This document shows positions 8,088 to 28,513 of a stretch of DNA of 34,725 nt, piece after piece. The notes beneath the pieces were generated by a model. The model searched no databases. It saw only the letters and a list, made by a program, of their open reading frames with translations, and was not told where the DNA came from. This stretch comes from an uncultured bacterium (GTDB taxonomy: Bacteria; Bacteroidota; Bacteroidia; Chitinophagales; Chitinophagaceae): contig CAIXQW010000256.1 in NCBI GenBank assembly GCA_903921675.1, positions 76,958-111,682 of the forward strand. Direction: 5' to 3'. Numbering within the stretch: position 1 is the stretch's first letter; each line of letters opens with the position of its first letter. Made by a program: the position numbers and the translations under genes.

Positions 8088-8162
8088 ATCCGAAAGTAGT
8101 ATGAATAAAAAGTTTAAGGACTTTTGATGCCCAATTAATTGTTACTTAATTGACAAAATAGC

Positions 8163-8312
8163 AGGGTATGCACCCCAAGGTAAAACTTTGGAAACAAAAT
8201 AGGAATCTTACTTCTAATGCTATCGGTACGAGATATTAATCCACCTAATGGCTTCGTAACACAGTATCGGGATTAGAAAAGCTAACACTCTTTTCCTCCT
8301 GTTAATTTTCTT
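8163..8312 (+). repeat. Dispersed structured repeat, copy A (150 bp)
   Basis: First of three related plus-strand elements (also 11615-11751 and 28201-28390). It begins AGGGTATGCACCCC, carries GGAAACAAAATAGGAATC at 8190-8207, then TATCGGGATTAGAAAA and CTAACACTC at 8265-8290, and ends GTTAATTTTCTT at 8301-8312. The last two blocks can pair (AGAAAA with TTTTCT, TAAC with GTTA). It fills most of the gap between the divergent CotH-like and acyl-CoA dehydrogenase genes. The minus-strand open frame over it is spurious. Confidence 0.75.
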
Positions 8313-8387
8313 AATATTATTCATTTTAAAAAAACACAAAGAATACTTACAATTGCTTAATTTCGTAGAATTAATACTGATAGTTTT

Positions 8388-11133: not shown

Positions 11134-11613
11134 ATGAAAAATAGCATCCTTTTTTTATTAATAATGATTGGGTTTGCAGCATGCTTGCCTAGCAATCAGT
11201 TTTTACAAAAATATTATTTGCCAAGCCATAATTGGAGCTATGCAGATGCTAAAGAGTTTCATTTTACTATTAAAGATACTGCAGATAAACATAAAATATT
11301 TTTTTTGATAGGGCATACAGAAACTTATTTAAATAGTAATATTTGGTTGCAAATTTTTTCTAAAAATCCTAGTGGCAAAGTAGATACTTTAGACCCTTTG
11401 GAAGTAGGCTTAGCTTTGGCTGATGGACATTGGCTTGGCAACAGAGCAAATAAAATAGTAGAACACACAATGGATATTACACCCAACGGTGGCACTTTTA
11501 GCTTTACAGAAAAAGGCGATTACACTTTTACTATTAAGCAATTAATGCGTGTAGATCCTTTGCCAAATATAGAATATGTTGGATTGCAAATAGATAAATT
11601 GACAAAGAAATAA
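11134..11613 (+). CDS. gldH: Gliding motility lipoprotein GldH
   Basis: A 160-residue lipoprotein with signal peptide MKNSILFLLIMIGFAAC and lipobox FAAC (Cys17). The body matches GldH: FHFTIKDTADKHKIFFLIGH, NIWLQIFSKNPSG, VGLALADGHWLGNRANKIVEH, and the closing MRVDPLPNIEYVGLQIDKL, which is the family signature. GldH is an outer-envelope lipoprotein needed for gliding in Flavobacterium johnsoniae and is widely kept in Bacteroidota, including non-gliders. A frame-start at 11119 overlaps the end of yicC, but the signal peptide begins at the ATG at 11134. It is translationally close to yicC (4 nt gap). Repeat copy B begins 1 nt after its stop codon. Confidence 0.9.
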   Translation: MKNSILFLLIMIGFAACLPSNQFLQKYYLPSHNWSYADAKEFHFTIKDTADKHKIFFLIGHTETYLNSNIWLQIFSKNPSGKVDTLDPLEVGLALADGHWLGNRANKIVEHTMDITPNGGTFSFTEKGDYTFTIKQLMRVDPLPNIEYVGLQIDKLTKK

Positions 11614-11614
11614 T

Positions 11615-11751
11615 AGGGCATGCACACAAAAGTAATCCTAATGTTTATACTCGTAATGGAAACAAAATAGGATTTGTGCCGATAATACTTTCGGTACAAA
11701 TCAGTACTGGGATTGGAAAATCTAACACTCGCTACTTGTGTTGATTTTCTT
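11615..11751 (+). repeat. Dispersed structured repeat, copy B (137 bp)
   Basis: Shortest of three related elements. It starts AGGGCATGCACAC just after the gldH stop. GGAAACAAAATAGGATTT lies at 11658-11675, followed at once by an 11-bp hairpin (ATTTGTGCCGA with TCGGTACAAAT, one G-T pair, 8-nt loop). Then come CTGGGATTGGAAAATCTAAC, ACTCG, and GTTGATTTTCTT to 11751. GAAAATC-T-AAC pairs with GTTGATTTTC across a loop of about 13 nt. It lacks the longer middle section present in copies A and C. Confidence 0.75.
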
Positions 11752-11787
11752 CATAAATTATATTTATAGAAAATAAGTCTGTAAAAC

Positions 11788-28091: not shown

Positions 28092-28200
28092 ACTTAGATG
28101 CACTTACTTGTGTAAAGTTACATAGATATCTTTACAACTTAATACAGCAATTATATATAATATAATCAGGATATTAAGATAAATATATATAGTAAATCAC

Positions 28201-28390
28201 AGGGTATTCTCCCCTAAGTAGTCCTGACATTTTTAGTCGAGATGGAAACTAAATAGGAATCGTACTGATACAATATCAGTACAAGGCATTAACCCTTCCG
28301 ATGGCTTCTCCGAAGTTATTAATCGGGGCAGGCTGTGCCTCTTCATCGGGATTAGAAAATCTAACACTCGTTCCTCATGTTGATTTTCTT
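28201..28390 (+). repeat. Dispersed structured repeat, copy C (190 bp, longest)
   Basis: Third copy of the element. It begins AGGGTATTCTCCCCTAAGTA, has GGAAACTAAATAGGAATC at 28244-28261, then a perfect 9-bp hairpin with a 3-nt loop (GTACTGATA with TATCAGTAC). A middle section follows with smaller stems (CTTC with GAAG; GGC with GCC), then CATCGGGATTAGAAAA and TCTAACACTCG. It ends GTTGATTTTCTT. AGAAAATC-T-AAC pairs with GTTGATTTTCT. It occupies the gap between the divergent oxidoreductase and tetR genes. The small plus-strand open frame over it is not a gene. Confidence 0.78.
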
Positions 28391-28513
28391 AATAAATTGC
28401 CAAAAGCAAAATATAAGGCTATGTTGAAAAATATTAAATTAGCCTTTACTTACCTATTTATTAATCAAATTTTATCTATAACATAAATCACCTATTTAGG
28501 CACTTGATTGATA

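Follow-up and report, generated by a model that had tools for sequence, protein, structure and literature searches.

A family of dispersed, probably mobile palindromic elements in a Chitinophagaceae genome

The TnpA transposase of IS608 binds an unpaired T in the stem, the palindromes have guide tetranucleotides on their 5' side, and TnpAREP cleaves at a CT beside its palindrome (PMC8266576). In Bacteroidetes, the TnpAREP genes of subclass 2.6 are flanked by atypical secondary structures, copies of which occur elsewhere (PMC6006769). A further group, the Rickettsia palindromic elements (RPE), consists of several families of palindromic sequences of about 150 bp (PMC10969869). The DNA analyzed here, which we call the window, is a stretch of 34,725 nucleotides from an uncultured member of the Chitinophagaceae. 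An earlier inspection of its letters (the sequence-only reading) had picked out three related intergenic sequences and taken them for either a mobile element of the MITE/REP kind or a repeated structured RNA.

The sequence blocks said to be common to three places in the window are all present, but the family is not the three-copy one that had been described. A covariance model built from 15 seed copies, with loop inserts removed from the seeds, found 44 places at E<0.01 (15 of them the seeds, which match by construction) and 48 at E<=1 in the organism's own draft genome (2.57 Mb, 306 contigs). The repeat family is present about 45 times in this genome and, given these 44 places, is about fifteen times what the three window copies suggested. 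When copy C was used as query against the same genome, further copies were found (59 matching stretches; best non-self E 1e-31), and an unguided repeat search of the window ranked the family first (D1, three copies of 51 nt, 63-100%). Copies occur on both strands without orientation bias, in convergent, divergent and tandem gene arrangements, and their neighbors are functionally unrelated. Nearly all of them are intergenic, as is expected of a REP, that is, a high-copy intergenic palindrome, while two (C147 and C279) provide the last codons and the stop of the adjoining genes. The elements range in length from about 80 to 245 nt; they have diverged (about 70-91% to the consensus), and many are truncated.

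As can be seen in Table 1, the three window copies are where they had been placed, although their exact limits, now set by comparing 31 copies, have shifted slightly. All three lie between genes. Their common orientation holds within the window, but not on the contig as a whole, since another copy lies on its opposite strand (C256:54387-54478). The neighbors previously assigned to copy B needed correction on one side: the kinase gene was confirmed, as that of a histidine kinase, whereas the other neighbor is gldH, whose stop codon (11611-11613) lies directly 5' of the copy.

Table 1. Positions in the window of the three copies and of the parts of copy C.
Feature	Position	Strand	Remarks
Copy A	8160..8315	+	Flanked by genes for a CotH-domain protein and an acyl-CoA dehydrogenase; covariance match C256:85114-85274, E 4.5e-16
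Copy B	11615..11754	+	Without H4; covariance match C256:88566-88713, E 2.5e-13
Copy C	28198..28393	+	Begins with CAC, ends with the terminal TAAT; covariance match C256:105152-105352, E 3.9e-25
AAT directly 5' of copy C	28195..28197	+	Probable target triplet; A, A and T in 29, 30 and 29 of 31 copies
H2 hairpin of copy C	28222..28242	+	TCCTGAC...GTCGAGA; 4/7 pairs changed on both sides across copies
H3 hairpin of copy C	28262..28282	+	GTACTGATACAATATCAGTAC; 5/6 pairs changed on both sides
H4 of copy C	28298..28349	+	CCGATG...CATCGG; loop holds inserted hairpin TCCGAAGTTATTAATCGGGGCAGGC
GGGATT, 5' foot of H5, copy C	28348..28353	+	Invariant in the cross-genus alignment
H5 terminal hairpin, copy C	28354..28389	+	AGAAAATC-T-AACA...TGTT-GATTTTCT; 5' arm with a single unpaired T
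Terminal TAAT, copy C	28390..28393	+	AA usually next; probable right cleavage site

The element is made up of successive hairpins. An outer pairing, P1, in which GGG near the 5' end is able to pair with the CCC preceding H4, surrounds the variable hairpins H2 and H3, and is followed by H4, GGGATT, H5 and TAATAA. With a slash marking a boundary, the left part of the consensus runs AAT/CACAGGG, H2, GGAAACAAAATAGGAA, H3 and ATTAACCC TT, and the right part continues with CCGATGGC-loop-GCATCGG (H4), GATT G AAAAATC T AACA-loop-TGTT GATTTTTC (H5) and TAATAA. What distinguishes the copies is small hairpins gained or lost at fixed positions. H2 is either full or shrunk to AAAG...CTTT, H3 has 6 or 10 pairs, a CCCGAA...TTCGGGGCAGGC hairpin may sit in the loop of H4 or in that of H5, and a TCCCG...CGGGA hairpin stands in place of the left arm of H5 in C44, C113b, C211 and a copy from a relative (L169). 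Mosaics of this sort are usual in palindromic repeats. The C211 copy is a head-to-tail dimer with the junction ...GATTTTTCTAAT/CACAGG..., in which a single TAAT is common to both units.

A scan of 399 genomes of the family under strict filters returned matches in genus g83 only, apart from a single fragment from a second genus; most of the family is without the element. With a second model, diverged copies were found in 5 of the 14 g83 species, one to five in each, with four in genome G321, and one contig of g83 is publicly available under the name Chitinophagaceae bacterium MAG-370. No GTDB contig matched the exact pattern, and a looser one returned the G321 contig only, from a set in which our own genome is possibly absent; plasmids, phages and viral contigs gave no match to the element. 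The alignment across genera retains CAC-GG at the left end and, at the right end, CCGA..GC..TCGGGATTG as well as H5 with TAATAA. Two other loci in relatives may be recorded here. In L108 (G185:C4:221219-224254), the element's right-end module is found at about 1420-1700, immediately after a duplicated tRNA promoter and first tRNA part, module and partial duplicate together being upstream of the intact tRNA gene. Positions 240-344 of L105 (G384:C276) hold a Bacteroidales small SRP RNA (RF04183, 84.2 bits).

Within g83, an occupied site could be compared with empty ones. The start region of a lipoprotein gene in G321 (L104) reads ATGAAC/CACGGG...GGTTTTTCTAAT/AAAGTGGCC, with an insert, CACGGG...CTAAT, of 138 nt or 46 codons, in frame and stop-free, between ATGAAC and AAAGTGG. 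Syntenic orthologs in G384 and G453 are without this insert and begin directly with the lipoprotein leader; when the 138 nt are subtracted, the leader of G321, counted as far as the lipobox cysteine, has 18 residues, the same number as in G384. At least one insertion of the element has therefore taken place in evolution. A second G321 copy, L109 (G321:C6, 1471-1520), which at only about 80 nt is the smallest, adjoins a TonB-receptor gene directly at its final sense codon, and TAG, the stop codon of this gene, appears to come from the element; the ortholog in G221 is free of the element and ends in a TAA stop of its own.

Folding of the element is conserved. In 15 copies, counted with loop inserts cut out, 83.9% of helix cells were paired compared with 77.5% in shuffles and 34-45% in slid controls, a percentage that is biased upward because the structure was drawn by hand from the same sequences. 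Double-sided changes are stronger evidence for the fold. The compensatory changes between copies that the sequence-only reading had named as a criterion are present in 16 of 36 pairs, compared with 9.6 in shuffles (0/500 reaching the observed count), and the largest share falls to H2, H3 and H5, each of which shows them. In the two genera together, 10 of the 24 pairs of P1, H4 and H5 are double-changed, against 3.7 in shuffles (0/500). As for P1, a local GGGTATG.ACCC hairpin competes with the long-range GGG/ACCC pairing, and neither covaries within our own genome; across genera three P1 pairs are double-changed, each resting on one sequence. RNAalifold returned no structure for the full-length alignment, which is probably a result of misalignment between the long and short forms of H2 and H3. 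Copy C itself folds with a z of -4.1 as DNA and of -2.6 as RNA.

Compensatory changes in H2, H3 and H5, which are found between genera too, would also be produced by a repeated structured RNA, whether a trans-acting sRNA or a cis-regulatory one, that spread as gene copies with its RNA fold under selection, and the semi-conserved unpaired blocks GGAAACaaaaTAGGAA and ATTAACCC, partly retained in the L104 copy, fit this as well. We nevertheless consider such an RNA unlikely. Rfam holds no known family for it: at gathering thresholds there was no match in the window, five own-genome loci and three loci of relatives, and at relaxed thresholds the element gave chance matches only. Selection on one RNA strand should favor G.U, yet the helices contain 16 G.T and 24 A.C mispairs and thus show no strand-specific RNA selection, in a test whose power is weakened by neutral decay after insertion, which would blur any G.U excess. 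Moreover, neither neighboring genes nor orientation are common to the copies, most of the family does without the element, and one copy is an in-frame insertion in a gene. Of the two original proposals it is the mobile one that has held up, on the strength of tens of copies that lie on either strand and in contexts without relation to one another, a site both occupied and empty, a head-to-tail dimer and a patchy distribution, and we regard it as very probable that the element is mobile palindromic DNA.

The ends of the element are sharp on both sides. Nothing is conserved upstream of the AAT that precedes CAC, and in the 31 copies H5 is followed by T/A, A (30), A (29), T (26), A (25) and A (29); several copies end in CAAA instead of CTAA. 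There are no terminal inverted repeats, the left end reading AATCACAGGG and the right end, reverse-complemented, TTATTAGAAAAATCAAC, and a hairpin of the H5 type is found at the right end only. None of 30 left/right comparisons in the 31 copies reached P<0.05 against re-paired copies, and this lack of association means that no variable target-site duplication is visible. The AAT on either side would fit an AAT target or a constant 3-bp AAT duplication alike.

Helitrons follow the rule 5'-TC...hairpin...CTRR-3' at an AT site. The consensus ends, AA/TCAC...hairpin-CTAA/T, would agree with this rule and, together with the lack of inverted repeats and of a visible duplication, could point to a non-autonomous rolling-circle element (IS91- or Helitron-like, HUH Y2) that starts with TC, ends with hairpin-CTAA and sits between A and T. 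The CAAA copies depart from the rule, however, and a rolling-circle origin seems improbable to us. We likewise give little credence to the idea that these non-autonomous bacterial HUH elements form a family not described before, with Helitron-like ends (AA/TC...hairpin-CTAA/T) and, inside, a domain of two hairpins whose conservation serves a separate function. The divergence and frequent truncation of the copies, and hairpin cassettes that recur at differing positions (C44, C113b, C211 and L169), might instead suggest a repeat that is old and no longer active, that has no enzyme dedicated to it and that was spread by recombination or by errors templated on hairpins; precise, recurrent ends and a clean single insertion speak for an enzyme at least in the past, and make this account rather implausible. 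It is also hard to favor cut-and-paste movement of a MITE belonging to an IS with a DDE transposase, AAT being the 3 bp duplicated. The AAT flanking most copies on both sides would suit such a MITE, and the 138-nt event agrees with it equally well (as a 3-bp AAY duplication), but it is at odds with the missing inverted repeats and with departures from AAT on one side that are not mirrored on the other; we judge it very doubtful. Integron attC sites were dropped as candidates, there being no cassette arrays and a right-arm box unlike GTTRRRY.

The search for an IS200/IS605- or RAYT-type transposase with matching ends, which the sequence-only reading had suggested, yielded no partner. Our genome has a single PF01797 match, L031 (G000:C216, 1167-1925), a REP-associated tyrosine transposase (NF047646, 91.3 bits vs. 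a cut-off of 80) with NHVH and YIHMNP motifs. Upstream of this gene are palindromes unlike those of the element (GCAAGGCG...CGCCTTG; two copies of a GCAAGGCGTCCCCGCCTTG palindrome); this comparison concerns the 5' side, the 3' flank ending with the contig. No copy of the element adjoins a transposase gene, and there is no H5 motif near the Y1 genes of five relatives. The multi-hairpin flanks of Y1 genes in relatives are unlike the element in sequence, and the one Y1 gene of G321 is of a different type and has its own dissimilar repeats. At that locus (L111, G321:C15:321112-324456), long multi-hairpin repeats GGATTAAAATCCACTG...GCCTACGGCATTACGTAATGCC...GGAATTTATTCCGTCGGATTAGCC lie on both sides (1060-1350 and 1960-2100) of a transposase gene of the Y---Q--HH type. 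A TnpB-type RNA-guided nuclease (PF07282) had no match in our own genome, and the reverse transcriptase profile (PF00078) gave no match.

We favor, with a probability of roughly 0.55, a non-autonomous palindromic element that is moved as single-stranded DNA by a Y1 HUH transposase, of the IS200/IS605 or REP type, acting in trans. By analogy, the features of H5, namely the invariant GATT at its 5' foot, the unpaired T, and CT/AAT at its 3' foot, appear to be placed as in IS608 and TnpAREP, and the GGGATT at the foot of H5 is a possible guide sequence. A Y1 HUH transposase from elsewhere would use the GATT at the 5' foot of H5 and the T left unpaired in its stem to recognize H5 on one strand, the folded molecule being DNA. 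This strand would be cut at two points, behind the terminal TAAT and behind the AAT of the left end; once excised, it would be joined 3' of another AAT triplet, leaving the target unduplicated. P1 may draw the two ends together, and H2, H3 and the loop hairpins would be variable filling.

This is apparently an unnamed palindromic mobile family in Chitinophagaceae, whose phylum has REP-type repeats that are described as atypical and are little studied. Sharp ends, a P1-H4-GATT-H5-TAAT order kept across genera and an in-frame insertion offer concrete sequences for testing which HUH enzyme is involved, and such repeats can alter the N terminus of a host gene or provide its stop codon. Compared with known systems, the element differs from a classical MITE in having no terminal inverted repeats; no target-site duplication is seen beyond a constant AAT. 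RPE are marked by in-frame insertion in genes and a conserved peptide. Set beside them by description, the element is likewise palindromic and of comparable length, and one copy (L104) sits in frame in a gene, but nearly all its copies are intergenic and contain stop codons. In contrast to REPs, it is much longer (about 80-245 nt) and has sharp ends on both sides, there is no GTAG/GTGG 5' of the palindrome, the base of H5 being preceded by an invariant GGGATT, and it is not found beside the REP-type gene of its own genome. Since the GTAG and flanking gene of a REP and the inverted repeats of a classical MITE are missing, we have assigned the element to neither. It nonetheless shares with REP/BIME and TnpAREP the dispersed palindromes, the mosaic of several hairpins with an irregular stem, a candidate guide at the 5' foot, a CT beside the 3' foot in most copies, and the presence of a TnpAREP gene in the genome. 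As for IS200/IS605, no autonomous IS with these ends was found, the genome is without a TnpB gene, and the left end, unlike that of IS608, has no matching subterminal hairpin. Like miniatures derived from IS200/IS605, however, the element has no inverted repeats and no visible duplication, is probably inserted 3' of a fixed short sequence, carries a hairpin with an unpaired T near its right end, and forms a head-to-tail junction with a common cleavage sequence.
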